Shown here: positions 10,367 through 39,458 of the stretch, piece by piece
Layout of the letters: each line of letters begins with the position of its first letter
Numbering within the stretch: the first letter of the stretch is position 1
Assembly: GCF_003315795.1 (NCBI RefSeq)
Contig: NZ_QMEY01000032.1
Span: 1 to 64,000 of the forward strand
Direction: 5' to 3'
DNA length: 64,000 bases
Origin: Spongiactinospora rosea
GTDB taxonomy: Bacteria > Actinomycetota > Actinomycetes > Streptosporangiales > Streptosporangiaceae
The notes under the pieces: model-generated
What the model was told of the DNA's origin: nothing
The model's database searches: none
The model's input: only the letters and a program-made list of their open reading frames with translations
Program-made: the position numbers and the translations under genes

Positions 10367-10394
10367 CGAACCCCCGACACCACGCTGTTGCCAA

Positions 10395-11920: not shown

Positions 11921-11943
11921 GCGAGCGACCGGCGAGCGACCAC
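11921..11943 (+). repeat. Putative integrase arm-type site, left of the att core
   Basis: A 23-bp stretch with an internal near-duplication (GCGAGCGACC twice) matches 19 of 23 bases of the stretch at 12171-12193 on the other side of the att core, in the same orientation. Paired repeats flanking an att core are typical of arm-type integrase binding sites; the function is inferred. Confidence 0.35.
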
Positions 11944-12007
11944 ACGAGACGAACTGCTCGCCGCGGGTGCTCCTCTGGGGAGGGAGCGCTGGTCGGATGG
12001 GGTGGGG

Positions 12008-12053
12008 GTGGTGGGGCGCCAGGGGCTCGAACCCTGAACCTACAGATTAAAAG
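12008..12053. repeat. attL: Attachment site copy (tRNA-Lys 3' part), left end of the 27-kb island
   Basis: These 46 bp are identical, without a gap, to 39413-39458, which covers the 3' half of the intact tRNA-Lys gene (from the bases just beyond the discriminator to the anticodon). To the right the similarity stops abruptly where the anticodon loop should continue. Integrases of this kind insert in tRNA 3' ends and leave such direct repeats, so this marks the left boundary of the island 12054-39458. The same copy would also be the right boundary of an older island to its left. Confidence 0.9.
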
Positions 12054-12469: not shown

Positions 12470-13546
12470 TTACAGATCGCTACGCCATGAACCATTGCGG
12501 CGTAACAGCACTGTTCCCGTGGCCTCCTGGGCGAGCCGATTCCCTGCGACGATGACGTTGGCCGCTTGGCCACGGATGGTTTCGGGAAGCCACGCAACGC
12601 GCCGCTCGGCGACGATCGGGTCGATCTTCTTCGGCGCCAATCCACGGACGTCCTGGCCGACAAGAAGGCGGTAAAGGCCCGCAGCAGGACGGACCGGTGG
12701 AAGTCCCAGCGCCGCGGCGGTCACGTTGGCTCGCTGCGGGATCGTGAGCCCGTCCTCGTCGAGGTCGCCGTAATAGGCGATGTCGGTCACGCCAGCCAGC
12801 CTGCTGATCCGCGCGACGGATGCCTCGAAGGCGTGCCCGCCGCCAAACGCCACGTATCCGACCTGCCCGCAGCGGTGCTCCAGCAGCGTGCTGAGGGTGG
12901 TGAAGGAGTCGCTGTTCTCGATCACCAGAACGATGCTGCCTGGGCCGACACGTTCGTACGCCAAGGGAGGAGGGATGCGCTCGGCGGCCAGGGTGGCCAG
13001 GGTGAGGCGGCCGGGTGCGAACAAGGTGGTGGCCGTGAGCGCGTCGAGGCGCTTCTCATCACCGAAGATCTCCAGGGAGCGCTCGCGCATCGGGACGACG
13101 GTCCGCCGTTCATCGTCCCCGTCGGTGTCGCGCAGCCACCGGTTGACCGTCTTGAGGACGTCGAGTTGCGCTGAGGACAGCGAGTCCGCGGCGGCCCAGG
13201 CGAGCTCACGGCGCCAGACGGCCATCGACGGTGCGCGGGGGTGCCGAGTGTCCTGCTTCGGCTGCGGCGGCAGGCGGAGCCAGCGTGGGAGTGGCGGGAG
13301 CGCGTCATCCCACCCATTGCGGCCTCGCGGCAGTTCTGCAAGGTGGTGGTCGGCGAGCTCATCTAGGAGTGCGGAAAGGACAAGGCGAGCCTGGGTGGTA
13401 CCCGCCGTTCCAGGGCAGGCGGCGACGAAAGCCGCGAGAATCCCGGCCTGCTCGACGCGGCGCTCTGCCATCGCGTTCAAGGTGGCCGAGAGGATAGCCG
13501 CCGATTGCGAGAGCGGTCGCTCATCAGCCTCCTCGCCGCCGCTCAC
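12470..13546 (-). CDS. jetD: Wadjet nuclease subunit JetD (Toprim domain)
   Basis: A 358-aa protein starting at GTG (13546), whose first bases overlap the stop of jetC as GTGA, so translation is coupled. The N-terminal half is the DUF3322-like helical/winged region. The C-terminal half is a topoisomerase-VI-like Toprim fold (DUF2220) with the conserved Glu in VIENSDSF (E210) and the metal-binding pair in YYGDLDEDG (D261, D263). In Wadjet, JetD is the endonuclease that cuts closed circular DNA once the JetABC SMC motor has extruded it. The usual motif reads near YWGDID; here the second half is DLDEDG, which still keeps the two Asp. It is the last gene of the operon sbcD-sbcC-jetABCD. The alternative name is MksG. 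Confidence 0.9.
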   Translation of the reverse strand: MSGGEEADERPLSQSAAILSATLNAMAERRVEQAGILAAFVAACPGTAGTTQARLVLSALLDELADHHLAELPRGRNGWDDALPPLPRWLRLPPQPKQDTRHPRAPSMAVWRRELAWAAADSLSSAQLDVLKTVNRWLRDTDGDDERRTVVPMRERSLEIFGDEKRLDALTATTLFAPGRLTLATLAAERIPPPLAYERVGPGSIVLVIENSDSFTTLSTLLEHRCGQVGYVAFGGGHAFEASVARISRLAGVTDIAYYGDLDEDGLTIPQRANVTAAALGLPPVRPAAGLYRLLVGQDVRGLAPKKIDPIVAERRVAWLPETIRGQAANVIVAGNRLAQEATGTVLLRRNGSWRSDL

Positions 13547-16500
13547 TGAGTGTCGCCTTCTTGCCGGGTCTCGTCGCCGGTTTCGTGCTCGCGTGGTTTC
13601 ACCAGCAGCCGCGCGGCGGAGATCCGGCCGGTGACATGGAGGTGCCCTATCCCCGTACGCTGGTCGGCGTCGTTTCGCAGCCGGATACACAGCGGGAAGG
13701 TAGCCAGTACTCGATCCTCCATGTTCCCTGTGGTGTAGATCAGCTGGACGCCCAGCGCCATGGCCATGTTCATCTGCAGGCTTAGCAGGTAGTCGGCGCT
13801 GGCCTTGCCGATCGGATTGTCCAGGATCAGCATCCCGCCCAACCCGCTGCCGGTGCGGGCTCCCGTCCGTGTGCTGCTGCGCAGGGCGGCCAGCGTGCAG
13901 TACAGCATGATCGCGCCGGTGAGCTCCTGCCCACCGGAGAAGATCTTGCCCATTTCGCTGATTGACGCGTACTCGGCACGGCCCGCGGCATCGGGCTTGA
14001 GAATCTCCACTTTGAAGTCACGTGGCACCGCGGCCCCGACGCAGCGCAGCACGAGGTCCCGGCCTGCCTGGCTCGGCTGAATGCGAGCGTTCTCGTCTAG
14101 GGCTTCGGCGATCCGCACGACCAGGGTCTGCGGTTCCGGCTTGGCGAAGCCGATCTTCAAGATCCGGCGACCGGCCCATACGCCGGCGCTCTCGGGCAGC
14201 CGCGATAGCCGCTCAGCCTTCTCCAGCAGAGCCAGCGCCTCGCTGGTGTGATGCTTCAGCTGGTCGATGAGTAGCTTCCGATGGCGGTCCGAGTCCTCGA
14301 GATCGGTGGTCAGGCTCGCCGCCCGCCCGGTGAGCTCGGCTGCCCATTCGCCGGCGCGTGCGGTCAGCGATGCCTTGTCGATTTCGGTGACCTGCTTGTA
14401 GATCGGCGCCTTGAGCTTGCCGAACCGGTTCTGGTTAGCGGTTTCACGGAAGTCCATGACGGCGTCGTCCACGGCTCGGTCCACATCCCGAAGGTGATCG
14501 GACGCTTTACTGTACGCCTCGGTCGCCTTGTCCGCGGCTTGCTGCGCCTCGTCGGCGGTTCCCGCGAACGGTCCTGAGACGGGCGGGAGGTCCAGCTTGC
14601 GGACGTCGGAGGCGAGGCTGCGTTGGACGACGGCCATCTCGCGTGCGGTGGCCTCGGCCTTGTGGAGCCGGCGCTCAGCAGCCAGTTTCAGCTCGAACGC
14701 CGTCTTGAGCAGTTCGTCGGCCTCGGCGAGTACGCCGATGGCTCGTTCAGTGAGCGCCGCGCCTTCGTCGGAGCTCGACGGTGCCCAGTCGTCGTCGAGG
14801 CTGGTCCACGGCGCTCCGTTACGCTGGCCTGCCGAGGATGTCTGCGCTTGCAGGTGAATGACCTGCTCGCTCAGCTTGCCGTACTCGCCTTCCAGAGTTG
14901 CCACCGTGCGCTTGAGTCTCCGCTTCGCGGCCTCGAGAGACGCGGAGCTTCCCGCGTCCGGGGATGCGGCCAGCGCTTCTGCACGAGCCCGGATGACAGC
15001 CGGTTCGTTGAGCAGCTCCGCCTCAAGAGAGGAGATCTCCCGCTGCGCGTCATTGACGCGCTGTCGCAGATCCTGGCCCACCTCTACAGCGAGGAAGGCG
15101 GATTCAGCCTGCTCGTAGGAGATCTCCAGCGCGGCGAGGTCGGCTTCGTCCGTGACCTGGCCGAACGGCTCGTTGCCGTGAACAACCTTCTTGATCCGGT
15201 CGGCGTACGCGGCGGCGTCGCGGCGGAACGACTCGGCTTGCACCGCGTATTCGGTGGCCCGGTCGCGGGATCGCTCGGCTTGCTCGCGGAACTCCTGGGC
15301 CGCGTCACGATATCCCACGGCCTCTGCTTCGAGCCTGGCGATCTCCAGACGATCCTTGTCGGCGGCGGCGGCGTCCGCTGTGAGCTGTTCGAAGGACTCG
15401 GCGGTGCGGACATCGTCAGCTGCGGTCTCTTCGGCCTCTATCACTACCTGGGCGTGCTGGTCGACAGCGTCAGCGGCTCGTGCGTACCTGTCGCGGGCCG
15501 TGTCCAGCAGGGACTTGGCCTCAGCCGCGGCGACCGACGCCGCTTGTGCCTCCGAGCGCAAGCGCTCCACATCGGCTGCCGGATGTTCGCGAAGCCACTC
15601 ACCAAGCCTGTGATTGAGCTCGAATGCGGCTTTCCGGAGCTCGGCCAGTTCGCGGAGAGCGGCGGCGCGGCCCTGGATGCGGGCGCGTGCCTGCTCCTGC
15701 AGCGCGGCGGCGGCCTCCAGGTCGTGCAAAGCGGGTGTCGGCTCCACGACGAACCCGTTCTCGGTCTCCTCTGCGCTCCCCTCGAACGACGCTGCGGTGG
15801 TGACGAGCACCGCTGCTGGTGGCAGCGGGCGTACCTCGGCGAGCACCGCCCGTGCCTTGTCCAGGGTCAGTTGGTCGGCCACGATGATGCCATCGACCAG
15901 GGCGGGGCGGGCTTGGATAATCTCGGTATGCAGGCGAGGATTCACCAGCTGCTCCAGCGCCCGCCAGCCCGCTGTCGCGGCGACCTTGTGGTCTGACAGC
16001 ACCCGTAGCAGGTCCTCGACCGCCGGGCGCGGCGGCATGAGCGCTTCGTCCTCGGCGATGAGCGCTTCGATCAGCCGCTGGTCTGCCTTGTTGTCCGCGG
16101 TCAACGCGTCCAGCCGGTCCTCGGCCGATCTCTGCGCAGCAGCGGCAAGGTTGCCGAGCGCAGAGGCGTTCGTCTCCAACCACAAGGCTGGATCGCGGCC
16201 GGGGACCTCCTCGTCGTCGCGGAGTTCGGCGAGTTCGCGCAACAACGTCTCTGCTGCGAGTGCCCGTGCCACGCCTTCCATGCTCTCAACCGCGCGGACC
16301 GCGATCTCGACTGCCTGGCGTGCCTCCATCTCAGGCTCGATCAGCTGGCGTGCGGCATCCTCGAGCTTGCGGAGCTCCAACTTGAGCTGGTTGTCGGCTT
16401 CACGATACCGCGCCGCCCTGGTCGTGCTCTCCTTGGCTTTGGAGCGTAGCCTGGCATCCGCTTCGCGGACACTCTCGCCTTCCTCCAGAATGCCCTGATC

Positions 16501-17967
16501 CCGCGCGGCCTCCACGCGGCGATCCACGTCCTTGACCTGCTTGGTCAGGAGCTCGGCGCGTACGGTGTTCGAGGTGGCCTGCCGCTCGTCCTCGCCCGCG
16601 CGGCGTTCGGCTGCTGCAGCGCCTGCCTTAGCCTTCGCGCTTTTGCCTGCCAGGTCGTTCGCCTGGGCGGTGCAGCGCTCCACGGCGCGGTGAAGGGCGC
16701 TTCCGAAGGTGGCTCCGGCTCGGTCACGGCGGAGCTGTGCGGCTCCTGCGGCCTGCTCGGCAGTATCCAGTAGTTCGCTGGCGACTTGGTACTTCTCGCG
16801 TGCGGCAGCGGTCTTCAACAGGTTGGGGACCAGCGTCCAGGCGGCTAGCTCCGTGCGGTCGCGAGCAAGCTGCCGCTCGACCTCCTGAGCCTTGGCACAC
16901 GCCTCGTCACGACGCAAGGCCAGGGTCCTTCGCCATACCTCTTTATGGACCAGGTCGGCCTGGTCGCGAGCCTGCTGCCGAACCTCGGCGTTCTGCCTCG
17001 CGGTCTTCACGTCTGCCTCATGGGCGGGCAGCGCGTCCTTGGCGCGCTGGACGGTCTCCCTGAGCTCAGCCGTGAGCTGTGCCAGGGCCGCCGCCGAAAT
17101 CTGAGCGTCCTTGGCCGCCGTCACCTGTTCGGCGCGCCGGGTGGCGAGGCGATGCGCGACTGCCGCGGTGGCGGTAGAGAAGTCGCGGTCCAGCAACAAC
17201 TGCTCGCGTCGCCCGATGTTGCCGGCGTATTTGGCAAAGGCCTTGCCCATTTCGATGTAGTTCTCCGCATCCAGCGCCTTGCTCAGCAGCCACTCGACGA
17301 ACTGGCGGCCCGTGGTGGTCTTGAACGCCTCGGCCGCGTCGCCTTCGTCGACGTTCATCGCCTGCTGCACCGCGAAGAGATCCGGCTCCAGACCGAGTCG
17401 GCGCAGATGGTTCTCCCATTCGCCCTGCCGCCTCTCGATCTCCACGTGCAGCGACTTATCCGCAGCGTCAAGGCGCTTGAGTGCGTCGTGGAAGGCGTTC
17501 ATCGGGAGCCGCCGCTGGCCTTCGGCGAATGGCAGGCTGGCCAGAGTAACGTCTTCTCCAGGGTTGAAGGAGTAGAACATCCGATCGGGCTTGCCGTCCG
17601 CGAGGGGGGACAGTACTTGGCCGGTCACCAGCGTCTCACCGGTCCGGACATTGACCCATTCCAGCGCCACGTGGGAGGGAGCTGCCGCGGACACCACATA
17701 GGCGCGCAACGCCTCACGGCCCTTACGGGACTGGCGTTCGGGAAGCACCGTGGACAGCAGCATCCGGATGAACACGGACTTGCCGCCGCCATTCTCCAGC
17801 ACCAGCAGGGTCGCCGGAGCCGGACGCCGGAACACCTGGCCGGGTGACGGGATCAGGGTACGGGCCGCGATCGGCGGACCGCCGTCGGACAGGTCCAGCA
17901 CAACATCGTCGTAGCGGGCGCTGCTCGGGCCGATATTGTAGAGGCGGACCCGGTTCAGCTCATACAT
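13543..17967 (-). CDS. jetC: Wadjet SMC-like ATPase JetC
   Basis: A 1474-aa SMC/MukB-type protein. ATG at 17967 follows AGGAGG by 11 bases, and the reading frame further upstream overlaps jetB and is not coding. Walker A is LENGGGKS (residues ~58-65). A central region of ~1200 residues is rich in Ala, Glu, Arg and Leu with heptad character, interpreted as two long coiled coils with a hinge between. The C-terminal head has the ABC signature FSGGQELTGA and the Walker B-like LILDNPIGKAS (~1380), with a final VQLIYTTGNMEDRV. In Wadjet the JetC dimer with JetA and JetB extrudes DNA loops and senses small circular plasmids. It sits 7 bp after jetB and overlaps jetD by 4 bases. The subtype was not assigned. 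Confidence 0.92.
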   Translation of the reverse strand: MYELNRVRLYNIGPSSARYDDVVLDLSDGGPPIAARTLIPSPGQVFRRPAPATLLVLENGGGKSVFIRMLLSTVLPERQSRKGREALRAYVVSAAAPSHVALEWVNVRTGETLVTGQVLSPLADGKPDRMFYSFNPGEDVTLASLPFAEGQRRLPMNAFHDALKRLDAADKSLHVEIERRQGEWENHLRRLGLEPDLFAVQQAMNVDEGDAAEAFKTTTGRQFVEWLLSKALDAENYIEMGKAFAKYAGNIGRREQLLLDRDFSTATAAVAHRLATRRAEQVTAAKDAQISAAALAQLTAELRETVQRAKDALPAHEADVKTARQNAEVRQQARDQADLVHKEVWRRTLALRRDEACAKAQEVERQLARDRTELAAWTLVPNLLKTAAAREKYQVASELLDTAEQAAGAAQLRRDRAGATFGSALHRAVERCTAQANDLAGKSAKAKAGAAAAERRAGEDERQATSNTVRAELLTKQVKDVDRRVEAARDQGILEEGESVREADARLRSKAKESTTRAARYREADNQLKLELRKLEDAARQLIEPEMEARQAVEIAVRAVESMEGVARALAAETLLRELAELRDDEEVPGRDPALWLETNASALGNLAAAAQRSAEDRLDALTADNKADQRLIEALIAEDEALMPPRPAVEDLLRVLSDHKVAATAGWRALEQLVNPRLHTEIIQARPALVDGIIVADQLTLDKARAVLAEVRPLPPAAVLVTTAASFEGSAEETENGFVVEPTPALHDLEAAAALQEQARARIQGRAAALRELAELRKAAFELNHRLGEWLREHPAADVERLRSEAQAASVAAAEAKSLLDTARDRYARAADAVDQHAQVVIEAEETAADDVRTAESFEQLTADAAAADKDRLEIARLEAEAVGYRDAAQEFREQAERSRDRATEYAVQAESFRRDAAAYADRIKKVVHGNEPFGQVTDEADLAALEISYEQAESAFLAVEVGQDLRQRVNDAQREISSLEAELLNEPAVIRARAEALAASPDAGSSASLEAAKRRLKRTVATLEGEYGKLSEQVIHLQAQTSSAGQRNGAPWTSLDDDWAPSSSDEGAALTERAIGVLAEADELLKTAFELKLAAERRLHKAEATAREMAVVQRSLASDVRKLDLPPVSGPFAGTADEAQQAADKATEAYSKASDHLRDVDRAVDDAVMDFRETANQNRFGKLKAPIYKQVTEIDKASLTARAGEWAAELTGRAASLTTDLEDSDRHRKLLIDQLKHHTSEALALLEKAERLSRLPESAGVWAGRRILKIGFAKPEPQTLVVRIAEALDENARIQPSQAGRDLVLRCVGAAVPRDFKVEILKPDAAGRAEYASISEMGKIFSGGQELTGAIMLYCTLAALRSSTRTGARTGSGLGGMLILDNPIGKASADYLLSLQMNMAMALGVQLIYTTGNMEDRVLATFPLCIRLRNDADQRTGIGHLHVTGRISAARLLVKPREHETGDETRQEGDTQ

Positions 17968-17974
17968 CGCTGGA

Positions 17975-18766
17975 TCAACCTCCTGACTCGGTCGAAGCGG
18001 GGGCCTCGCCGCCCGGGCTGTGGAACGTTGGCTTGCCGTCCAAGCCGACGGCGACCCCGAGCGCGGCCAATTCGCCGAGCATCTGCTGCCCGGCCAGTTC
18101 TCGTACCTGGATCTGGTATCGGGCCGTGGTGGTATAGGTGCCGCCGTTCTCGTTGCCTGCGCGCCGCAGCATACCGTTGTCGGCCAGGTACTCGGCGACG
18201 CGCTTGGTGATCGCATGTCTGCTCTTGGAATGGGCTCGCGCGTCTTCGGTGGGAGCCACCGGGTTGCGCCGCTGGTGGTAACGCCACAGCTGCACGAGAT
18301 CTGGCTGACCGGCCGGAACTCCGTCGTCCTCGCCGGTCTCGGCCGCACGATGTTCCAGTTCCTTGGCCGCCTGCTCCACCATCTCATCGACGTGACGGAT
18401 CGTGACCCGGCCGACATGGGCCTCATCGTCGAGGTCTTCTGGCCGGTAGTAAGCGAGCGCGGCTATGGCTAGGTGCGCCAGCGCGGCGATCGGGCGGTCG
18501 GCGACCTGTTTGATGTGGTCGATGACGCTAGCGGCGAACTGCGTCTCAGGCGTAGTCCCGAACACGAGCCCAGCCCGCGGGTCCACCGCGATGACGGTCA
18601 GGTCGAAGCCGCGCGCGGCAGCGTGCAGCAGCTGGGCGAACGCGGCATCGGCACGGTACCGACTCACCAGGGTGGCGTACTCGACGCTGCGCCGGGGCGT
18701 CAGCCCGGGCTGAAAGCCGAAGGAGACCAGCCTGCAGGCCGCAGCCAGGTCCTCGAAATTGCTCAT
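17975..18766 (-). CDS. jetB: Wadjet accessory subunit JetB (MukE-like)
   Basis: A 263-aa protein with tandem winged-helix character: an N-terminal alpha-helical part, then HSKSRHAITKRVAEYLADNGML and a beta-wing GGTYTTTARYQIQVREL near residues 175-220. These features, the length and the position between a kleisin-like gene and an SMC gene identify it as the DUF4194/MukE-like JetB, which binds the kleisin. It starts 2 bp after jetA ends and stops 7 bp before jetC. Sequence similarity within this family is low, so the assignment rests mainly on operon order. Confidence 0.82.
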   Translation of the reverse strand: MSNFEDLAAACRLVSFGFQPGLTPRRSVEYATLVSRYRADAAFAQLLHAAARGFDLTVIAVDPRAGLVFGTTPETQFAASVIDHIKQVADRPIAALAHLAIAALAYYRPEDLDDEAHVGRVTIRHVDEMVEQAAKELEHRAAETGEDDGVPAGQPDLVQLWRYHQRRNPVAPTEDARAHSKSRHAITKRVAEYLADNGMLRRAGNENGGTYTTTARYQIQVRELAGQQMLGELAALGVAVGLDGKPTFHSPGGEAPASTESGG

Positions 18767-18768
18767 GC

Positions 18769-20214
18769 TTATCTCTCCAGACTGTCCGCGATCAAGCCGC
18801 GTACCACCAGAAGGTCGTTTCCGGCGAAGACCTCGTCGTCCAGTTCCTCGTCGTCCGCCACCGCGGCCAGCGTCATACAGTGCTCGGCGTCGTAGCGTGG
18901 CGCCCCAAACAGAGCCAGCACCTGCAGAGCCAGCAGCCGGTCGGTTTTGCAGTGGGCGGCACGGCGTACCGCCTTCAGCAGCGCGGACAACCGGATGCCG
19001 TCGGCATGCGCCAGCAGCGATTCGACAGCCGCGTACTGCTCCTCGGAGAAGGCTGGGTCGTCGTCGGCTTCACCGAACTCCGGCTCGGTGATCAGGCCGT
19101 CTTCACTATCCCGTTCGTCAGGCAGCGTCATCAGGCCCGTGATCAAATCCGGAAGGTAGACGACGGCGGGCCGGCGCGGCGGTGTCGCCGCGCTGGCGAA
19201 CCCCTCCAGCAGCGGAAGTGCCTGTCTTACTGACAGCTCTAGCACCGGTTCAAGGAGCTGGCGGTCGAGATCGACGTAGGACCGGCTCGGCGGGGGTACG
19301 AAAATCTGCCGCTCCTGTTCCGCGCGAAACCTCTCACCCACCTCCTGGAGGTTCGCCTGCAGCATCGCGTGCCTGCGCAAGCATTCCTCGAGAATTGCGA
19401 TCAGCTCAGCAGCCTGAGCCGGGGTGGCCTCCTCCGTGCTGTTGTCCATCATCTGGATCAGGTTGTCCTTGATGACGCTCTCGGCGTTTATTCGGTCCTC
19501 AATGTGCTCCAGCGCCTCCGCCTGGGTCCGCCGCACGTCACGGACCCAGTCCACCGAGCGCACGTCCCTGCGCATCCCCTCCAGCCGAGTACGGATGTAC
19601 TCGGCGTACTGCACCGTGCGACGCAACGCCATCTCTGCCGCGCGGTGGGCGTCGGCCAGCCGTCCACGCCTCACGAGCGCCTCCAGCTTGGCGTCCGCTG
19701 CCACCTGCTCGGAAGCGATGTCGATGTCCACCGCGCCGACTAGCACCGCGATCGCCTCGTTGGAAGCGCGAAGTCGTGGTCGGCCATCGGGGCCGACGAC
19801 CTCTCGCAACAGCTTGAAGGAGAACTCGTGCGAGACGTAAGTGCCGTCCCATACGAGGCCGTACATGTGGCTGAAGTCGCGATCGACCGTCCCGACGTTC
19901 ACCAGGCTGTCCAGGATCCAGCGCGCCACATCGGTGTGTTGGTCGAGGCTGCGGGTGGGCATCTGGAGCTCTGCTACACGAATCACCGCTGCCACGACGT
20001 CCTCGTGACGGGCACCGTCCTCGAAGTCCATCTTCAGCGTGACGGTGTCGATGGCGGTGAGCGCGAGTTCCTCCATCTGGTAGCCGCCCCAGTCCCGTGA
20101 CGTGAGCAGTGACTTGCGGCGTTCCAGGTCGAGGACCGGATCGGCAACGGCCAGCGCCTTCACTCGCGTGGACAAGCCCAACGTATCCCGACCGGGCCTA
20201 TGCGCTTCCGACAT
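18769..20214 (-). CDS. jetA: Wadjet kleisin-like subunit JetA (MukF-like)
   Basis: A 481-aa protein. ATG at 20214 is preferred over an in-frame ATG at 20238 because GAGGAGGGGAGG lies just before it. The N-terminal ~100 residues look like a winged-helix dimerisation domain, the middle (~170-310) is helical coiled coil (EALEHIEDRINAESVIKDNL), and the acidic C-terminus (~390-480) again looks helix-rich and would contact the SMC head. This layout is that of the kleisin JetA/MukF. Gene order A-B-C-D is exactly that of Wadjet operons. It lies 28 bp after sbcC and 2 bp before jetB. Confidence 0.82.
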   Translation of the reverse strand: MSEAHRPGRDTLGLSTRVKALAVADPVLDLERRKSLLTSRDWGGYQMEELALTAIDTVTLKMDFEDGARHEDVVAAVIRVAELQMPTRSLDQHTDVARWILDSLVNVGTVDRDFSHMYGLVWDGTYVSHEFSFKLLREVVGPDGRPRLRASNEAIAVLVGAVDIDIASEQVAADAKLEALVRRGRLADAHRAAEMALRRTVQYAEYIRTRLEGMRRDVRSVDWVRDVRRTQAEALEHIEDRINAESVIKDNLIQMMDNSTEEATPAQAAELIAILEECLRRHAMLQANLQEVGERFRAEQERQIFVPPPSRSYVDLDRQLLEPVLELSVRQALPLLEGFASAATPPRRPAVVYLPDLITGLMTLPDERDSEDGLITEPEFGEADDDPAFSEEQYAAVESLLAHADGIRLSALLKAVRRAAHCKTDRLLALQVLALFGAPRYDAEHCMTLAAVADDEELDDEVFAGNDLLVVRGLIADSLER

Positions 20215-20242
20215 CTGGATTCCTCCCCTCCTCTTCAACTGG

Positions 20243-23200: not shown

Positions 23201-23371
23201 GGTCTCCCAGGAAGTCGTGCGGAACAACGCGTAAGTGATGGCGTCGAGGAGGCTGGTCTTCCCTGCGCCGGTATCACCGAGCGCCGCGACCAGGCTCTTG
23301 CCGGTGAAGTCGATGGTGACAGGGGCGGGGTAACTGCGGAGCCCGGTCAGAGACAGTTGCAGCAGTCTCAT
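20243..23371 (-). CDS. sbcC: SbcC/Rad50-type exonuclease ATPase subunit
   Basis: A 1042-aa Rad50-like ABC ATPase. Walker A is LGDTGAGKTSL (~31-41), long Ala/Glu-rich coiled coils flank the zinc hook CPVC (C460, C463), and the C-terminal head has the signature RLSGGEKFLASLALALALAE and Walker B LFLDEGFATLD. The ATG at 23371 overlaps the sbcD stop as ATGA; a longer frame upstream is not coding. SbcCD cleaves hairpins and DNA ends and removes protein-blocked ends. It is a diverged paralogue carried on the island rather than the housekeeping copy. Its place directly in front of jetA suggests that it processes DNA cut by JetD or acts on the same invading DNA. Confidence 0.95.
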   Translation of the reverse strand: MRLLQLSLTGLRSYPAPVTIDFTGKSLVAALGDTGAGKTSLLDAITYALFRTTSWETREARQRIADGAQAMSVELTFIQGAQHWHVQRTLHVTNPNAARHHLRNLHTGEELDNAVKVDERIKAILQMGYKTFMRVGLLAQGRFDQLLTAGQTERSRRLRELFGIESLESVQKLAGSRYITLQSLIGAAEGKRTTMPLDPRQAATAAGAAADAAEARAAFLNTAIDRISALQTEAVRARSMAETAATAAEDLSARGVANADAVLHGLEPIAADIAARRDLLNRRGHDAVRAEEQLTKAIADAGDEELRRSAVILEDLAARAEEHRGERDRLAKLNRRLATDGAAIAAAESDLATRAANAEPLAHAAEDAAETSKRVRTSAAIARPLVALAATAARAVAGAALKYATAVGTCETARHNIGILEGNALAIKERAAIAARQLDTLLLRDQAAGLAAGLHPGDGCPVCKQSVPADFTPTSESYAAELHSAKERLREATVAQDEIFGQLVQARAALTTADQAKLDRERDHQRALQDVQEAQIKAAAALKDFAALVLEAEGDFDAESATERLTTADDQQHITTITEVITVCELEATAVADRKQTDALRHTARLEAAREALENQKDRHQQAIEDANTASDRHSGAVGRLAADLQALPVHIQAMLPEEAIEVRADAAAAAATTVATHLSEIQRLVEQLETVREEKAEVLTQQRALDHEARTTMEQPLDKLHAALNDWAQAVEEAINHLGTRRRHRRPQAPADYGIAGIRLFATELSKIAETLGCELGQASAIGTARADAALSNLREKAAEVADVDGFQPSDLTVPHLLHPLVAAAAKAAAEAEGQRREQHRAERLIKPAADLDAAIAAGKARCSALELLRKELVDAKFLGHLTMLRTRALLGVASDLLGQLTDQRFGFADGFEIISRGSGVVHHPNRLSGGEKFLASLALALALAELHSRSGPRLGSLFLDEGFATLDTTALESALDVLRSQVGGDRLVMVISHLHAVAEGVDDVLWVENGPAGSTARWMTQAERDELVQADLSSGLQTLA

Positions 23372-24633
23372 CGGCCAACCTCCTGCTCGCACGCGAGCGC
23401 GGCGGTCAGCAGCGTCTCCTCGCAGCACGGTGCGGGATCCTCAAGGTCCGATTCGGCCCGCAGCTGGACGAAGGTTTCCATGGCACAGTCCAGGGCCAGG
23501 CCGGTTATACCGCGGCTGGGCAGGTAGTCGCGAAGGAGGTCATCGACGCCAGGAAGTTCCTGGACGGTGACATCGCGATCCAGGAGGCGGCCCGCCGACT
23601 CGGGACGGCGTTCTTCGATGGCGACGACGGTCGCCGCCGGCAGCATCTTCGCGATGGTGTCCGCCAGGGACGAGGTTGAGGCGTCGACGTTCACTACCGC
23701 TTTCACCCAGGCGTCGCCGACACTGCCCGCACGGTGCGCGATCTCCTCGAGGGTGCCCTCTAGACGGATCAGGCGGCGGCCGGAGTCGAGCGGTACGAGT
23801 TCGATGCGCGGCGCGTGCCCCGGAGCGATCTCCGCCAGGACGACGCTCTTGATGTCACGGGTCTCGCCGAAGTCCAGTTGTAGCGGGCTGCCCGCGTAGT
23901 GGGCGGGGAATCCGGCGCGGGCGACGGGCTGCGGTTTGTGGATGTGGCCGAGGGCGCCGTAGTCGACCGCGGGAAGGTCGGCGGTGGCGATCGCGTAGTC
24001 GGCTTCGATGGAGAAGCGCCGCTCGGAGTAGGAGGGCATGGCGCCTTCGACGAACAGGTGGGCGGCGAAGACCAGGATGTCGCGTGCAGAACGCCCTACC
24101 GCCAGCCGGTGGTAGACATCGGCCTGGACGGCACGCATCCGCTGGGCGTACGCGGCTGTCACCATGGCGGGGTCGACGAAGTCGTAGGCGAACCTGTTGG
24201 GGTGCAAGTACGGAAGCGCGCCAACCCGCAGGGTCAGCTCACCCCCCGCGCCTGGGTACTCGGCCATCAGCAGTCCGCTGGGGCGAGCGTCGGTGGCGAA
24301 CCGCACCTGGACCTGGTCCTCCTCCCGGTTACCCATATCGCTAAGGACGAACTGCAGGAATGCCAGCACATGGGCGGTGTCGTGATTGCCTGCCACCACC
24401 ACTGTCGGCGCGATCGCCTCGAGGCGGCGCAGCGCTTGGGCGGCGCGGCGCATGTCGTCTAGGCCCGGGCGTGGGCCGTCGAACAGGTCGCCGCTATGCA
24501 CGATCACGTCGGGGGCGAAGTCGGTGGCGATCTCGATGATCTCGTCCAGGACGGCGTCGAACTCGTTGTCGCGCCGGTGACGGCCGAGCTGGCGGCCAAG
24601 ATGCCAGTCGGAGGTGTGGAACACACGTCCCAT
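23368..24633 (-). CDS. sbcD: SbcD/Mre11-type nuclease subunit
   Basis: A 421-aa calcineurin-like phosphoesterase. ATG at 24633 has GGAG eight bases upstream and begins with the conserved MGRVFHTSDWHLGR (motif I). Further metal-binding motifs are HSGDLFD, VVAGNHDT, FAAHLFV and ALGHIHKPQ. The C-terminal ~120 residues would hold the capping domain and the SbcC-binding helix. It is the first gene of the minus-strand operon and ends with an ATGA overlap on sbcC. The upstream region is shared with the divergent gene at 24773. Confidence 0.95.
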   Translation of the reverse strand: MGRVFHTSDWHLGRQLGRHRRDNEFDAVLDEIIEIATDFAPDVIVHSGDLFDGPRPGLDDMRRAAQALRRLEAIAPTVVVAGNHDTAHVLAFLQFVLSDMGNREEDQVQVRFATDARPSGLLMAEYPGAGGELTLRVGALPYLHPNRFAYDFVDPAMVTAAYAQRMRAVQADVYHRLAVGRSARDILVFAAHLFVEGAMPSYSERRFSIEADYAIATADLPAVDYGALGHIHKPQPVARAGFPAHYAGSPLQLDFGETRDIKSVVLAEIAPGHAPRIELVPLDSGRRLIRLEGTLEEIAHRAGSVGDAWVKAVVNVDASTSSLADTIAKMLPAATVVAIEERRPESAGRLLDRDVTVQELPGVDDLLRDYLPSRGITGLALDCAMETFVQLRAESDLEDPAPCCEETLLTAALACEQEVGR

Positions 24634-24772
24634 CACGGGAGTCTCCAGGGGGAAGAGCCCGCAGGACAGCACGAGTCGCGCAGCCACACGGGCGGAGGAG
24701 TAGATGTAGCCGACCGTACCTCAAACTCTGGAGAAAATCTGGAAGCTTCGGGAACCCTGGTACCGTTGAGCC
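24634..24772. promoter_or_regulatory. Divergent promoter region between the two defence operons
   Basis: These 139 bp separate sbcD (leftward) from the 278-aa gene (rightward), so both operons must start here or nearby. On the minus strand TTGAGG followed after 16 bases by TACTCC is a weak sigma-A-like candidate. It is AT-richer than its surroundings near 24720-24750. No operator palindrome was convincing. Shared control is likely but unproven. Confidence 0.4.
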
Positions 24773-25609
24773 ATGAGTGATCCGCTGGACGCACTGGAGA
24801 AGAGCATCAGCGTCCTGCGCCGCGCGATCCGCGACGCCTCCGCAGCCGGCGACATGGAGCGCGCCAGTGAGTTGCGCGCTCAGCTCCGCCGCGCCGAACG
24901 GGCATGGGACGCGCTCATCGACACTGACGTGCCCCCCACCCCACCGACGGTGGGCTCTGGCCCGGTGCCCGGCGGTGCGCAGGGCTCGATGTTGCCGGCA
25001 CGCGAGCACGTGCATCGTGCGCTGGTGCTGTTAGGAATCCCGGCAGCGCCGAAGCTGATCGTGAGCGTCCACGAGGCGTTCTTCCCTGGTGAACTGTCCG
25101 CTGCCAAGCTGTCCAGCCTGCGCCGCGACGAGGAGCGGTCCTACCGGTCGGCGCCCGGTGCCCGGCCGTACTATCTGTGCCCCGCGCTGACCCATGACCT
25201 GCTGACCCCGGCGCGGGCCCTGATCACGATCAGTACGTGGTCACTGGAACAGCGCGTCATCGGCCCGCTGTCCCCGCGTGTCGACTTCCTCACCGCCGCG
25301 ATGCGCATCGCCGAGACGATACACACCGTAGCCAGATCGTCGGAAACAGGGCCTAGCGCGGCAGCGCGGCGGCTACTCTGGCGATTCGCTGTGAATATAC
25401 CTGGGGCGACGCCTGTCGGACAGACCGTCCACGACGCCGTGCCCGACCCGCACCTGGTGATCGCCGCGGCTCGAGCTGAGCTGAACGTTCACAGCGACGC
25501 GGACCGTGCCACCCGGGCCGAGGCTGCGCGGCGGGCTCGCAAGCGTCTCGGTGAGGATTCGCAGCTGTTCGGCACGCCCCTGCGGAACGTCAAACGTCTG
25601 CAGGCTTAG
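24773..25609 (+). CDS. Unknown 278-aa protein heading the nuclease-helicase operon
   Basis: The ATG at 24773 begins a coiled-coil N-terminus (residues 1-45, MSDPLDALEKSISVLRRAIR and following), then a Pro/Gly-rich linker (~50-70). Next is a globular part starting REHVHRALVLLGIPAAPKLI, which resembles a winged-helix fold where AAKLSSLRRDEERS would be the recognition region. The C-terminal 60 residues are Arg/Ala-rich and basic. A DNA-binding or regulatory role is possible. No family was recognised. It is the first gene of the rightward operon, 50 bp before the Cas4-like nuclease gene, and conserved linkage with that operon could be tested. Confidence 0.6.
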   Translation: MSDPLDALEKSISVLRRAIRDASAAGDMERASELRAQLRRAERAWDALIDTDVPPTPPTVGSGPVPGGAQGSMLPAREHVHRALVLLGIPAAPKLIVSVHEAFFPGELSAAKLSSLRRDEERSYRSAPGARPYYLCPALTHDLLTPARALITISTWSLEQRVIGPLSPRVDFLTAAMRIAETIHTVARSSETGPSAAARRLLWRFAVNIPGATPVGQTVHDAVPDPHLVIAAARAELNVHSDADRATRAEAARRARKRLGEDSQLFGTPLRNVKRLQA

Positions 25610-25659
25610 ACCTGATTTTCTTCCACAAGATCCCGTCTTCTCATGAGGATCCCCACACC

Positions 25660-26805
25660 GTGAATGCAGCAGTCGACGCACGCTTGGACGTGCTGCGCGG
25701 CTCCGCGCCGCGCCTGACCTACAGCGCCAGGTCACTGGCCGCGCTGGAGAACAACCCGCGCTGCACCCTACGCGCTGTCCTGGACGCCTCCGGCTCCAAC
25801 AAGAACGACATCGCCAAGCACGCCGGCTACGAGCTGCCCTTCGGCCAGTCTCCCTTCGCAATCACTCGCGGCGACTCCTTCGAGGCGATGGTGAAGGCCA
25901 ACGGCTGCGCGGAGCTGCTGCGGGTTCTGCGCGAGATCCTGCAGTTGCCCCTGCCGGAGGTGGGCTACCAGGATCTGAACGACGTCGGCGGCGACGGCCG
26001 GCCAGAGATCCGCCACGCCCGCACCAAGCAGCTGCTTGTTCGGGCCGCTCAGGGGCTGGGCGACGGCACCCTGTACGACCACCCGATGCTGCTGCTCCGG
26101 GTCGGTGGGCACGCCGCGTTTCTGGAGCCGGACCTGGTGGCATTCCGTGTTGGAGACCGTTTTCACGTGGTGGAGATCAAGAGCTTTCCGATCATCGACA
26201 CGCGCGCCGACCCCGCGAAGGTGCGGGCAGCCACAACGCAGGCCTGCGCGTACATCATCGCGCTACGCGCGATGCTCGCCGAGGCTGGCATCGGCCCGGA
26301 GGCGGTTTCCGAGACGATCGTGCTGGTGGCGCCCAAAGACTTCACCAATCGCCCGACCGCGGCATTCGTCGACGCCCGCAAGCAAGTGTCCACCCTGACC
26401 AGGCAGCTAGCACGCATCGAGCGCATCGGCGACCTGCTCGCCGTGCTGCCTGACGACCTCACCTTCGACCTTGTCGGCGAGGCCGGGGCGCCGCGACCGG
26501 CCAGCGAGCTCGTCGAAGCCCTGGACCAAGTGCCGGCGGCTTACCGGCCGGACTGCCTGAACCACTGTGAGATGGCCTTCTACTGCCGGGCCCGAGCGCG
26601 CGACGGCGGGTCGCTGGACGTGCTCGGGCCAGTGGTGCGCGAGCAGCTCGGCGGCATCGACACCGTCACCATGGCCTTAGGCCTGGCACGCGGAGAGCTG
26701 CAGCCGAACGACGAGCAGGTCGAGATCGCCGCCTCCTTGCGGCACGCCGCCCGCTTACGTGCCGAGCTGCGTTCCACCCTCGGAACACCGGGAGCTACGA
26801 CGTGA
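25660..26805 (+). CDS. Cas4-like Fe-S PD-(D/E)XK nuclease
   Basis: A 381-aa protein starting at GTG with GAGGA upstream. The PD-(D/E)XK core is visible as FLEPDLVAF (D158), VVEIKSF (E172, K174) and QACAY (Q194, Y198), the order found in Cas4, AddB and Dna2 nuclease domains. One Cys near the N-terminus (C35) plus C299-x3-C303-x5-C309 at the C-terminus would bind a 4Fe-4S cluster as in those families. It is therefore probably an exonuclease acting on single-stranded or flapped DNA ends. The next gene starts inside its stop codon (GTGA overlap), and an SF1 helicase follows. Together they resemble the two halves of Dna2. No cas1 or CRISPR array is in the window, so a CRISPR role is unlikely. Confidence 0.8.
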   Translation: MNAAVDARLDVLRGSAPRLTYSARSLAALENNPRCTLRAVLDASGSNKNDIAKHAGYELPFGQSPFAITRGDSFEAMVKANGCAELLRVLREILQLPLPEVGYQDLNDVGGDGRPEIRHARTKQLLVRAAQGLGDGTLYDHPMLLLRVGGHAAFLEPDLVAFRVGDRFHVVEIKSFPIIDTRADPAKVRAATTQACAYIIALRAMLAEAGIGPEAVSETIVLVAPKDFTNRPTAAFVDARKQVSTLTRQLARIERIGDLLAVLPDDLTFDLVGEAGAPRPASELVEALDQVPAAYRPDCLNHCEMAFYCRARARDGGSLDVLGPVVREQLGGIDTVTMALGLARGELQPNDEQVEIAASLRHAARLRAELRSTLGTPGATT

Positions 26806-28304
26806 GCAGAGTGTCCGCGCTGGCACGTCTGGAGGCGATGGAGGCGATGGCCGCGGTACCACTGACCGAGTTCCGCCACCGGTTCCTGTCCGACCATCCC
26901 CTGGTGATCGTGCCGCTGGTCATGGCGGGAGAGGCAGGAGCGCCGCTCGCGGCGATGGTCGGCTCCGCCAAGAGGTCACCGAAGCTGCTGGTCGTCGCGC
27001 AGCCGCGCAGCCGGACCCAGCGCGTCGCCTTCGCCGCCGAGCTCGGCGGGATCGTGATGAGCTATATCGACCACTGCCGCCGCGAGCGCCGTACGAGCAC
27101 TTCTCGAGGTCAGGAGGTCGCCTCTTACTACACCGATGCCCCTCAGGTCCTGGTTCCCAATCCCGGCGGGGTCAAAGCTCTGGCAGACCTTGGCCGGGCA
27201 TGCCGGTTCCGCGCGACCACAGGCCCTTACCGCGTGGCGGACATCGTTCCGCGGCTCGGCATGTGGCTGACGTTCCTGGTGGAGTCGGCCGAGCAGGCAG
27301 GCACCTCGATGTTGCTGCCGGTCACCGGTATGCTCAGCGAGCATTGGGCCACCGGCCAGAGCGTGCTGGAAGACCAGAACCTTGCCTCGCTGATGGCATG
27401 GATCGCTCCACCCGACGGTCTGAGCGTGGCACAAGCCATGGCCGATGCGGAGAATCCTGACGTTTGCCCGCCTGCGGGTCCTGCCACGGCTCCGAGCTTC
27501 GACAGATACTATCTAGAACCGGCGATCAAGCGGTTCGACACGGCCGATCCACAAGCGAAGGCTGCAGCAGAGGACGAACTGCGGGAGCTGCTCGCCGATC
27601 AGCTCAAGCCCACGTGGCGATTGATGTGGCAGGCGATCTCCCTGCTGCGCGGCGTCCCCGAGGCGCCGCGGGCCGCGGCGCGTTTCGAACGCGACCGCGT
27701 GTCCTTTACTGCGTTCTCCGACTACCAGGACGCCAGCGGCTTGCCGCAACGCAAGCAGGACACCCCAATCGGCGCGGCCAGGCGCCTGAGCCGGCTGGAG
27801 CGGGCTTTGGCGGACTTTGAGGTGGACATGGCGTTCGACGACCCGTATGTGCTGGCTGACCGGCGCAGCGTCGGAGAGGCATTCGCCGGGACGGTGGTGG
27901 CGGGCGAGCCCGGCCGGTTTGTCACCACGGACAAGGGCAGGCGGGTGCCCAGGCCGCTGATCACCGTCCGTACCCAGGACCCTACGCGGCTGGCCCCCGG
28001 CACCAAGCTGATCAGCCCGTCCATGCCGGCGAGCCATCGGGCGCTCATCATCTCGACGGTCCCCGACGGGGACACGAGCCTGGTTACCGTCGAGGTCGTT
28101 AGCGGCATGGGCCGCGGCCTCGTTCCGAAGCCGGGAACCGTTCCCGCTGAGGGCCAGCAGCTCGCCTACCTTCCCGACCCCGGTTGGCGGCCCGCACCGG
28201 TGTTCCCAGACAACGACCGGGTTCCGTGGACGCACGCCGCCGCGACCGATGACTCTGACGAATTGCAGGAAGCCGCCACAGAGGAATGGGGCGATGATGA
28301 CTGA
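26802..28304 (+). CDS. Unknown 500-aa protein between nuclease and helicase
   Basis: It starts at GTG overlapping the previous stop by four bases, and its last codons overlap the helicase start, so it is translated as part of a coupled trio. The protein is soluble and mixed alpha/beta, with an acidic tail (DDSDELQEAATEEWGDDD). No Walker, nuclease or zinc motif was found. The C-terminal ~130 residues (PRPLITVRTQDPTRLAPGTK onward) look beta-rich, perhaps an OB- or SH3-like fold. The tight coupling suggests it is an obligate partner linking the nuclease to the helicase, by analogy with multi-subunit resection complexes. That is inference. Confidence 0.65.
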   Translation: MSRVSALARLEAMEAMAAVPLTEFRHRFLSDHPLVIVPLVMAGEAGAPLAAMVGSAKRSPKLLVVAQPRSRTQRVAFAAELGGIVMSYIDHCRRERRTSTSRGQEVASYYTDAPQVLVPNPGGVKALADLGRACRFRATTGPYRVADIVPRLGMWLTFLVESAEQAGTSMLLPVTGMLSEHWATGQSVLEDQNLASLMAWIAPPDGLSVAQAMADAENPDVCPPAGPATAPSFDRYYLEPAIKRFDTADPQAKAAAEDELRELLADQLKPTWRLMWQAISLLRGVPEAPRAAARFERDRVSFTAFSDYQDASGLPQRKQDTPIGAARRLSRLERALADFEVDMAFDDPYVLADRRSVGEAFAGTVVAGEPGRFVTTDKGRRVPRPLITVRTQDPTRLAPGTKLISPSMPASHRALIISTVPDGDTSLVTVEVVSGMGRGLVPKPGTVPAEGQQLAYLPDPGWRPAPVFPDNDRVPWTHAAATDDSDELQEAATEEWGDDD

Positions 28305-29628
28305 GACCGATGCGGCTGCCAGGGCCGACGCGGCCATCACGGAGATCTTGGCCGACCTGTCCGACAGTAGGCACAAGGCGGTGGTCGTCGACTCCCCGCC
28401 GGGGGCAGGCAAGAGCACCCTCGTGGTCCGCGCCGCCGGAGATCTGGTCGGCGGCGGCGAACGCCCGATCGTCGTCGCCCAGACCAACAACCAGATCGAC
28501 GACCTTGTCGTGCGGCTAGCCGCCGCACACCCAAGCCTATCCATCGGACGACTCAGCAAAAGCGGGTACACTCCCCTGCCAGAGGTGAGCGAACCAGCGA
28601 ACACGTTCGTCGGTGCCACCTTGTCCGACTTGAAGGGCTGCGAGATCATCGTCGGTACGTCGGCCAAGTGGGCCACCGTCCGCGAAGGAACGTTCGACTG
28701 GGCGATCCTCGACGAGTCCTACCAGATGCGCTCCGACACTCTGCTGCAGATCGTCGAGCGTTTCGAGCGCGGCTTGTTCGTCGGCGATCCCGGACAGTTG
28801 GACCCGTTCACGATGGTCGGCACGGAGCGGTGGATCGGCCTGCCGCACGACCCGACACTCAACGGCGTCTCAGTGATGCTGGCCCACAATCGGGGCATCC
28901 CTGAGCATCGGCTGCCACTGTCATGGCGCCTGCCATCCACCGCCGCACCCACTATCTCAGAGGCGTTCTACCCGTTCACGGGCTTCACTGCGGGCACCAG
29001 CCCTGGAACGCGCATCCTGGAGTTCCATACAGCCGCCTTCGGCAACACCGATCTGGATGAGACCCTGGCAATGGCGTTTACCACCGGGTGGGCGCTACAC
29101 GAGTTGCCGCGCCGCCATGTCCCACGCACTGACGCCGAGACCCTTCTGGCGGCCACACGACTAGCCACCCGAATACTGGAGCGCGGAACCCTCGCCACCT
29201 GCGAGCGGTATCCCGGTGGCCGGTTCCTGGACGCCACCGACATCGCCATCGGCGTCGCCCACCGCGACCAAGCCGACCTGGTCCGGACCACACTCGCCAG
29301 GACCGGCAACCCAGCTCTGTCACGGGTGGCCGTCGACACGGCCAACCGGCTGCAGGGCCGGGAATACGAGGTCGTCATCGTCGTGCACCCGCTGTCCGGC
29401 CGCCGGGACGCAACCTCATTTCACCTGGAAGCCGGACGGCTGTGCGTGCTCACGTCCCGGCACCGACAAGCATGTATCGTCGTCGCACGCGAAGGCATCG
29501 TCGACCTCCTGGACAGCCATCCTTCGACCGACCCCGTGCACCTGTCAGTGCCGGCGAAGTTCCCCGACGGCTGGGAGGCCAACCAGGTCGTGATGAGCAA
29601 GCTCGCGCAGCACCGCATCGCGGCGTAG
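28294..29628 (+). CDS. Superfamily 1 DNA/RNA helicase (UPF1/Dna2-like)
   Basis: A 444-aa protein with SF1 motifs in order: Walker A SPPGAGKSTLV (~33-43), motif II WAILDESYQ (~136-144), motif III FVGDPGQLDPF (~162), motif V VDTANRLQGREYEVVIV (~346), motif VI LTSRHRQACIVV (~385). The short length without large 1B/2B insertions and the DPGQL box fit the UPF1-like SF1B group that includes the helicase part of Dna2. Two adjacent ATGs (28294, 28297) lie within the end of the previous gene. A 5'-3' unwinding activity feeding the Cas4-like nuclease is the likely role, inferred from family and coupling. Confidence 0.85.
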   Translation: MMTETDAAARADAAITEILADLSDSRHKAVVVDSPPGAGKSTLVVRAAGDLVGGGERPIVVAQTNNQIDDLVVRLAAAHPSLSIGRLSKSGYTPLPEVSEPANTFVGATLSDLKGCEIIVGTSAKWATVREGTFDWAILDESYQMRSDTLLQIVERFERGLFVGDPGQLDPFTMVGTERWIGLPHDPTLNGVSVMLAHNRGIPEHRLPLSWRLPSTAAPTISEAFYPFTGFTAGTSPGTRILEFHTAAFGNTDLDETLAMAFTTGWALHELPRRHVPRTDAETLLAATRLATRILERGTLATCERYPGGRFLDATDIAIGVAHRDQADLVRTTLARTGNPALSRVAVDTANRLQGREYEVVIVVHPLSGRRDATSFHLEAGRLCVLTSRHRQACIVVAREGIVDLLDSHPSTDPVHLSVPAKFPDGWEANQVVMSKLAQHRIAA

Positions 29629-38035: not shown

Positions 38036-39340
38036 ATGCGACTTCGAAATGATCACTGCGTGGTCTACAAGCGGTGCGGATGCATCGATGAAGCCACCGG
38101 CAGGCAGCTCGGCCGGCGGTGTGACCGCCTGGCCGACCAGGAGCACGGCAGCTGGTACTTCGCCGCCCAAGTCGATGGGCTCAGTGGGCGGCGCGAACGT
38201 ATCCGGCGTGGCGGCTACGCCACTGCGAACGAGGCTCGGCAAGCGTGGCGGGATATGATCCCGATCAGCGCCGAGCAGGCGGCCGGAAACGGCTATACCG
38301 TCGCGCGATGGCTGAACCACTGGCTGGAAACGCACCAAGGGCTGCGCCCCAACACCCGCAAGTGCTACGCCGACCACGTACGACTGCATCTCATCCCGCA
38401 CCTCGGCCGCATCGACCTGGGCAAGCTCACCAGCCGGGACGTGGCACGGATGTTCAGCGCGCTCGCGCAACGCCGTACCCGTTACGGGGTACCGATCGCC
38501 GCCTCTACCCTGCACCGCATCCGGGCGACTCTACGAGCCGCGCTGAACACCGCCATCCGCGAAGGCCTCCTCCAGGCCAATCCGGCCCGGCTCGTCCGGC
38601 TGCCCTCACCGCGGCGCCCCTACCCGGTGGTATGGACCGACCGCAGGATCGCAGCCTGGCAATGCAGTGGAGAGCGCCCCGCCGTAGCCGTATGGACCAC
38701 CCAGCACTTGGCCGAGTTCCTGGACTTCGTACGCTCAGACCGGCTCTATCCGATGTGGTGGCTGATCGCCCTACGCGGACTGCGCCGTGGCGAAGCCGCG
38801 GCTCTGCGCTGGGTAGACCTCGACCTGGACCGGCACGAACTCACCGTGACCCAGCAACTGATGCACACCGGCCAGAGCCTCATCACCTGCCCACCCAAGA
38901 GCGATGCCAGCCACCGGACCATCGCCCTGGATACCGAGACCAGCCGCTTGCTGCGCCGCCACGAGCGCAAGGAACGTCAACGGCTGGGCAGCCGCTGGAG
39001 TGAGACAAGTCCCGTGTTCGCCGCTCCCGATGGGAACTGGCTCCGCCCCGACCACCTCACAACCCGCTTCCATGCCCTCGTGAGGGCCAGCGGACTGCCG
39101 CCGATCCGGCTGCACGATCTCCGCCACGGCGCGGCCACCCTTGCTCTGGCCGCCGGTACGAATCTGAAGGTGGTCCAACACACTCTCGGCCACTCAAGCA
39201 TCGTGGTGACCGCCGACACCTACACTTCGGTCCTGCCCGAAACCTACCACCACGCCGCGACAGCGACCGCGCAACTGGTGATCGCCCAAGCACGCAGAAC
39301 CGCACGAAAGGCCCGCACACCAGCCGCCTGCTCATCGTGA
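38036..39340 (+). CDS. int: Tyrosine recombinase/integrase of the tRNA-Lys island
   Basis: A 434-aa integrase. Residues 1-75 form a Cys-containing N-terminal arm domain (YKRCGCIDEATGRQLGRRCD). Residues ~85-185 are the core-binding SAM-like domain (GNGYTVARWLNHWLETHQG). Residues ~220-420 are the catalytic domain, with Arg in ALRGLRRGEAAAL, Lys in PPKSDASHRTI, HDLRHGAATLAL, GHSSIVVTADT and the nucleophilic Tyr in DTYTSVLPE. It lies 72 bp from the att core in tRNA-Lys, the standard place for an integrase. It is homologous to the fragment at 11211-11807 and to the remnant at 32173. Confidence 0.95.
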   Translation: MRLRNDHCVVYKRCGCIDEATGRQLGRRCDRLADQEHGSWYFAAQVDGLSGRRERIRRGGYATANEARQAWRDMIPISAEQAAGNGYTVARWLNHWLETHQGLRPNTRKCYADHVRLHLIPHLGRIDLGKLTSRDVARMFSALAQRRTRYGVPIAASTLHRIRATLRAALNTAIREGLLQANPARLVRLPSPRRPYPVVWTDRRIAAWQCSGERPAVAVWTTQHLAEFLDFVRSDRLYPMWWLIALRGLRRGEAAALRWVDLDLDRHELTVTQQLMHTGQSLITCPPKSDASHRTIALDTETSRLLRRHERKERQRLGSRWSETSPVFAAPDGNWLRPDHLTTRFHALVRASGLPPIRLHDLRHGAATLALAAGTNLKVVQHTLGHSSIVVTADTYTSVLPETYHHAATATAQLVIAQARRTARKARTPAACSS

Positions 39341-39412: not shown

Positions 39413-39458
39413 GTGGTGGGGCGCCAGGGGCTCGAACCCTGAACCTACAGATTAAAAG
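39413..39458. repeat. attR: Attachment site copy within the tRNA-Lys gene, right end of the island
   Basis: The 46 bp are identical to 12008-12053. They cover the tRNA 3' end, T arm, variable loop and the 3' side of the anticodon arm, so integration keeps the tRNA gene whole here and leaves a partial copy at the far end. Confidence 0.9.

Follow-up and report, generated by a model that had tools for sequence, protein, structure and literature searches.

The locus considered here raises the question of why a Wadjet anti-plasmid system should share an operon with an Mre11-Rad50-type nuclease and lie back to back with a second operon encoding a nuclease and a helicase, and whether the products of all these genes work together. 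It is found in the window, by which we mean the entire 64,000-nucleotide stretch of Spongiactinospora rosea DNA that was analysed.

Ten genes on an integrative element

All ten genes were present in the open reading frames and their translations as first described (Table 1). The earlier note had described a tightly packed minus-strand series sbcD-sbcC-jetA-jetB-jetC-jetD with the rightward genes back to back with sbcD, and had placed the set at one end of a mobile island. The packing was confirmed, with successive spacings of -4, 28, 2, 7 and -4 bp, and sbcD-sbcC and jetA-D form one tight operon. The companion operon g7-cas4L-unk500-helicase begins 139 bp from the start of sbcD, and neither a sigma-70 nor a terminator consensus was found between the divergent operons. 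The six non-jet genes make up a discrete cassette of approximately 9.6 kb, sbcC-sbcD // g7-cas4L-unk500-helicase, at the two ends of which no obvious common terminal sequence was seen.

The terminal position also held. The 46-bp tRNA-Lys repeats and the integrase adjacent to one of them delimit an integrative element of 27.4 kb, the left 17 kb of which is occupied by the Wadjet and the cassette. The rest of the element comprises an HTH gene, transposase genes, genes of unknown function and the integrase; two of the transposase genes lie at 32979-35054, between the cassette and the integrase. Just to the left of the left attachment repeat there is a second, truncated tyrosine integrase (200 aa; 11205-11807), suggesting that another element inserted at this tRNA has left a remnant. 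Further out, and outside the element, are a gene for an RHS-repeat protein of 2668 aa with a PT-HINT pretoxin domain (1787-9793) and, following it, a small gene (9818-10366) where an immunity gene would usually be expected.

Table 1. Features of the element in window coordinates; the starts of sbcD, sbcC, jetA, jetC, jetD and helicase are refined ones, that of jetD being placed by the GTGA overlap with the jetC stop.
Feature	Position	Strand	Basis
Left attachment repeat	12008..12053		46 bp, identical to 39413-39458 and to the tRNA-Lys 3' end
jetD, nuclease subunit of type III Wadjet	12470..~13546	-	PADLOC JetD3 1e-112; Pfam JetD_C above cut-off
jetC, SMC/MukB-like ATPase, 1474 aa	13543..17967	-	PADLOC JetC3 PDLC00589, E=0, 1614 bits
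jetB, 263 aa	17975..18766	-	place between jetA and jetC; homology to same-place gene in other type III loci
jetA, kleisin-position subunit	18769..20214	-	PADLOC JetA3 4e-174
sbcC, Rad50-like ATPase, zinc hook CPVC, 1042 aa	20243..23371	-	TIGR00618 8e-47; SbcC_Walker_B
sbcD, Mre11-like nuclease	23368..24633	-	TIGR00619 2e-35, above cut-off
g7, 278 aa, all-helical, cassette marker gene	24773..25609	+	conserved family; AF2 pLDDT 74
cas4L, PD-(D/E)XK nuclease, four Fe-S-type cysteines	25660..26805	+	motifs in 44-45/45 cassette homologues
unk500	26802..28304	+	PolB-exonuclease-like domain (27-294) and SF1B barrel/stalk (316-472) by predicted fold; AF2 pLDDT 88.9
helicase, SF1B core (RecA1/RecA2), Dna2/SMUBP2 group	28294..29628	+	Pfam AAA_11/AAA_12
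Tyrosine integrase of the element	38060..39340	+	Pfam Phage_integrase 9e-18; beside tRNA-Lys
Right attachment repeat	39413..39458		inside tRNA-Lys 39414-39488 (-)

The Wadjet itself can be assigned to type III from its matches to the JetA3, JetC3 and JetD3 models of PADLOC, which are full-length, and its gene order jetA-B-C-D is that of the type. JetB matched no PADLOC model, JetB3 included, and is 28-47% identical to the gene in the same place in more distant type III loci. The motifs VLVIENSD and YYGDLDEDG of JetD are TOPRIM-like. Closed circular DNA is what Wadjet cuts (PMC10586767), and by analogy the Wadjet of the window is predicted to restrict small circular plasmids through cleavage by JetD. 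Where a canonical Wadjet consists of four genes only, this one has sbcD-sbcC in the same operon and the companion operon beside it.

Wadjet partners of the cassette

A search with JetA in two genome sets, one a sample of the phylum and the other of the family, gave matches in 32 other genomes, among which the whole ten-gene set was found in the same order and at approximately 80% identity in a single one, Actinomadura sp. DC4 (L020). The cassette adjoined the jet genes in none of the 16 other type III genomes of the phylum sample and in one of 16 in the family sample; type III Wadjet therefore usually occurs without it. The same six genes were nevertheless seen beside a type I Wadjet on two Streptomyces plasmids. 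When 84,980 species genomes were scanned with the g7 family, 80 loci were obtained among the matches listed, out of 337 g7 relatives, and the Wadjets in their neighbourhoods were typed by gene calls and clustering, PADLOC scans and tblastn. A Wadjet lay within 10 kb of 40 of the 45 divergent six-gene loci with usable flanks, mostly only 11-480 bp away, as against 2 of the 31 four-gene loci that lack sbcCD (Fisher p 1e-13, a value that overstates independence because the loci are phylogenetically related). A separate SbcD search of 395 genomes yielded two further loci, G976 (type I) and G941 (type II), both linked to Wadjet, and with these and the window the count becomes 43 of 48.

The partner may be a Wadjet of any of the three types. 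Type I is found, for example, at L053, L054, L066-L069, L071, L079, L082, L085 and L092, and another type I lineage at L070, L078, L086, L089, L093 and L096. Type II is the partner at L059, L060, L064, L073, L074, L076, L077, L083, L087, L091, L094 and L135, and type III in the window and at L056-L058, L061, L062, L075, L080, L081, L101 and L105. Five loci (L063, L072, L088, L090 and L113) lack a Wadjet within reach. The genomes of four of these carry Wadjet genes elsewhere, that of L090 gave weak type II-like matches only, and at L072 the cassette itself is broken. At L084 the cassette stands beside a decayed Wadjet.

The partner has been exchanged repeatedly. On a tree of the cassette (SbcD, cas4L, unk500 and helicase; 50 rows; a quick IQ-TREE run with most inner branches starred) the 40 typed loci require the Wadjet type to have switched 14 times or more. 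Pairwise DNA comparison makes the exchange visible in four pairs of loci, outside the cassette block of which no similarity was found at the threshold used. The stretch common to L077 (type II) and L092 (type I) is 9.64 kb long and 95.3% identical, beginning near the sbcC stop and ending a little beyond that of the helicase; the cassette blocks are 95.7% identical between L074 (type II) and L079 (type I), 88.4% between L083 (type II) and L086 (type I) and 86.1% between L075 (type III, on the left) and L078 (type I, on the right). The position of the partner varies too. It may follow the 3' end of sbcC in the same direction, as type III does in the window and L056, type I in L089 and L093 and type II in L087 and G941; it may follow the 3' end of the helicase gene in the same direction (types I and II); or it may be convergent with the cassette (type II in L064 and L074, type III in L058 and in L101 and L105). 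Independent re-pairing in so many arrangements argues both against a fixed ten-gene block kept by shared ancestry and against random islands.

The earlier note had regarded the ten genes as a single unit and had asked whether they stay together across different islands or are linked in this genome only. For the six non-jet genes the outcome is strongly positive, in company with types I, II and III, and the linkage to Wadjet is clearly not private to the window genome. The type III jet genes, on the other hand, are one of several interchangeable partners, and most Wadjets have no cassette. Genomic evidence thus gives good support for a coupling of cassette and Wadjet, and since a set of genes that travels as one block in many actinomycetes has come to lie repeatedly beside all three Wadjet types, the two probably work together.

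Two observations on individual loci may be added. An intact cassette with no Wadjet beside it (L063, 1-15563) lies at the very end of the chromosome record of Streptomyces sp. WAC 01529. In Streptomyces turgidiscabies Car8 a near-identical cassette with a type I Wadjet is present on different contigs (L068, L069 and L071), which could reflect true copies or an error of assembly.

The enzymes of the cassette

SbcC and SbcD resemble the bacterial SbcCD nuclease in their metallophosphoesterase motifs, Walker motifs, signature and zinc hook, and differ from it in being carried, as a second and dedicated copy, by mobile DNA; the genome's other SbcC-like gene lies elsewhere and is distant, with 33% identity over part of its length. 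The Walker A, signature and Walker B motifs of SbcC were kept in 38 of 38 homologues and the phosphoesterase motifs of SbcD in 44 of 44. Lamassu and MADS, defence systems with Rad50/SMC-like subunits, were considered on account of weak PADLOC matches of SbcC to LmuB and mad3; the remaining subunits of both systems are absent here and the real match is to SbcC.

In the companion operon, g7 matched nothing in PADLOC, Pfam or NCBIfam, and a PDB profile search returned nothing meaningful; weak, helical Foldseek matches to 14-3-3 proteins were distrusted at the confidence of the model. The PDB profile searches with cas4L and unk500 were equally uninformative, and neither protein has a match in PADLOC, Pfam or NCBIfam, the curated Cas4 and PD-(D/E)XK models included in the case of cas4L. 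Near-invariant residues of cas4L are D158, E172 and K174 and the cysteines C35, C299, C303 and C309, in a 1 + 3 arrangement. The helicase is more readily placed, with PDB profile matches to SMUBP-2 (9e-13) and DNA2 (4e-9) and motifs that are nearly invariant across cassettes. Given the near-invariance of their catalytic motifs, SbcD, SbcC, cas4L and the helicase of the cassette are probably active enzymes. A second cas4L-unk500-helicase copy is present in the same genome (L037, C19:3500-23400, at positions 8479-12289 of that locus), and there the PD-(D/E)XK motif reads AIKA in place of the expected EIKS.

The fold of unk500 is predicted with high confidence. Foldseek alone gave no significant match, and the domain assignments come from VIA-align, with Z of 9.6 to Pol II, 9.4 to Ighmbp2 and 8.5 to Dna2, values of 8-10 being only moderately above background. 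In the predicted structure the exonuclease domain of family B polymerases is matched by residues 27-294, and the barrel of Dna2 and the N-terminal stalk/barrel of Ighmbp2 by residues 316-472. The DxE of Exo I is not conserved at the expected position, and the exonuclease-like fold may therefore be inactive or structural.

Taken in gene order the three proteins would supply an Fe-S nuclease, an exonuclease-like fold with an SF1B barrel/stalk, and a RecA core. This is reminiscent of the single chain of the TM0106 family (TIGR03491), in which a nuclease is followed by a PolB-exo-like RNase_H_2 domain and an SF1B helicase, the middle domain being the one that unk500 resembles by predicted fold. 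A combination of Fe-S nuclease and SF1B helicase is likewise found in Bad, a bacterial DNA2-like enzyme whose biochemistry has been studied and whose central domain has no known function (PMC7430649). On the helicase profiles, the fold of unk500, the domain order of TM0106 and the precedent of Bad, cas4L-unk500-helicase therefore look like a helicase-nuclease of Dna2/TM0106 type split into three genes. Bad and TM0106 are each one polypeptide, whereas the members of the cassette are separate genes in the relatives examined, with the exception of a truncated cas4L-unk500 fusion in L072. The case is made from fold, motifs and gene order because sequence profiles link neither unk500 nor, convincingly, cas4L to TM0106, and support is uneven between the parts: strong for the helicase (hhalign 99.2% to the TM0106 helicase domain), motif-based for cas4L (a weak hhalign profile match to the TM0106 nuclease) and structural for unk500. 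The 500-aa unknown of the earlier note would on this reading be no chance addition; the fold predicted for it suits the middle part that such an enzyme would otherwise lack.

Function and history

We lean towards the view that the cassette is a portable resection module, Mre11-Rad50 plus a Dna2-like enzyme, which serves Wadjet by destroying the DNA that Wadjet has linearised. Wadjet, here of type III, would recognise small circular DNA and extrude it and JetD would cut, as established for the family. The dedicated Mre11-Rad50 would then bind and open the resulting ends, including protein-blocked ones, an activity established for SbcCD, and the three-gene helicase-nuclease might unwind and degrade the linear product, so that the invader would be destroyed rather than merely linearised. 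Both the order of action and the substrate of the cassette enzymes are inferred. Such a scheme bears on the fate of plasmid DNA after the Wadjet cut, and full destruction would matter where linear DNA is tolerated or re-ligated.

On the main rival reading there is a division of labour. Wadjet would restrict circular plasmids, and the cassette, acting on its own, would defend against linear DNA that Wadjet is unable to cut, such as phage genomes and linear plasmids, whose ends are capped or free; the two would be kept together to deal with both topologies. Linear plasmids are common in the hosts of the cassette. According to three sources, ends that are free, protein-blocked or closed as hairpins are recognised by Rad50-Mre11, and linear invaders are expected among its targets (PMC10586767; PMC6265447; PMC12624138). 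Both readings predict co-inheritance and they differ over the action of the cassette without Wadjet; a few cassettes do stand without one, which this reading can claim for itself. An independent defence, however, should often lack Wadjet or join other systems, and the proportion that adjoins Wadjet is as high as given above. Moreover, a general attack on linear DNA would endanger cassettes such as that of L053, carried by a linear plasmid, and that of L063, close to a chromosome end, and we consider this explanation unlikely.

Improbable to a greater degree is the suggestion that the cassette protects the host, repairing or resecting chromosomal breaks left by stray Wadjet cutting so that the cell survives. 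Mre11-Rad50 with a Dna2-like enzyme is machinery of the sort with which break repair begins, and a conserved chromosomal operon of the four-gene half does exist, but the hosts already possess repair systems of their own and most Wadjets manage without such a partner. That cassette and Wadjet merely happen to share defence islands on mobile elements, with no functional coupling, is very improbable. The ten genes do lie on an integrative element, and a few cassettes (L088 and L090) have type I restriction genes at their flanks, but the neighbour is almost always a Wadjet, in most cases directly next to the cassette or in one operon with it, and its category has stayed constant while its type has switched many times.

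Returning to the resection module, the pairing of a sharply bounded block with all three types, over and over again, amounts to a natural experiment, and it implies that something common to all Wadjets, be it the detection of circles or the cut DNA, makes the enzyme set useful. A bolder and tentative proposal, to which we would not quite commit ourselves, is that the cassette could be an effector add-on of universal use in SMC-based immunity: a single mobile machine of Mre11-Rad50 and split Dna2, assembled in bacteria and with the same composition as eukaryotic MRN-DNA2, which would plug into any Wadjet type and turn linearisation into complete destruction. Each pairs an Mre11-Rad50 nuclease with an SF1B helicase and an Fe-S nuclease of Dna2 type; the likeness is one of composition only, and the set described here belongs to bacteria, is mobile and goes with an anti-plasmid system. 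It offers a bacterial and genetically tractable counterpart of MRN-DNA2 resection. No description of Wadjet with this enzyme set was found in the literature searched, the scope of which excluded preprints and most subscription papers, and a survey of actinobacterial defence that reports Wadjet in 42% of Actinobacteria mentions neither SbcC nor Cas4 (PMC10482375). What would be new is the repeatedly evolved partnership, the enzymes and Wadjet themselves being already known.

Other arrangements of the same genes suggest how the cassette may have arisen. The four-gene half stands alone with conserved neighbours in Actinomadura and Nocardia, and in Streptomyces cas4L-unk500-helicase is accompanied by a gene of approximately 325 aa in the place of g7. 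This chromosomal operon with stable neighbours (L039, L041-L050, L052 and L108-L134 across the three genera) is probably an unstudied Dna2-like repair enzyme, a role that the reading of the cassette proteins suggests for it. Relatives from Amycolatopsis, Kibdelosporangium, Crossiella and Actinoplanes have a co-directional operon g7-cas4L-unk500-helicase-sbcD-sbcC with no Wadjet nearby (L097, L099, L103, L110 and L123), which is a second, independent joining of the four genes to sbcCD. A plausible history is thus a chromosomal end-processing operon which was joined by sbcCD and subsequently recruited to Wadjet on mobile elements. The four genes are also found, at positions 2038-13601 of L040, beside large genes which, to the eye, resemble a DUF1156-type methylase system; the corresponding motif of cas4L reads LIRS there, and to judge from this the nuclease of that locus is probably inactive.
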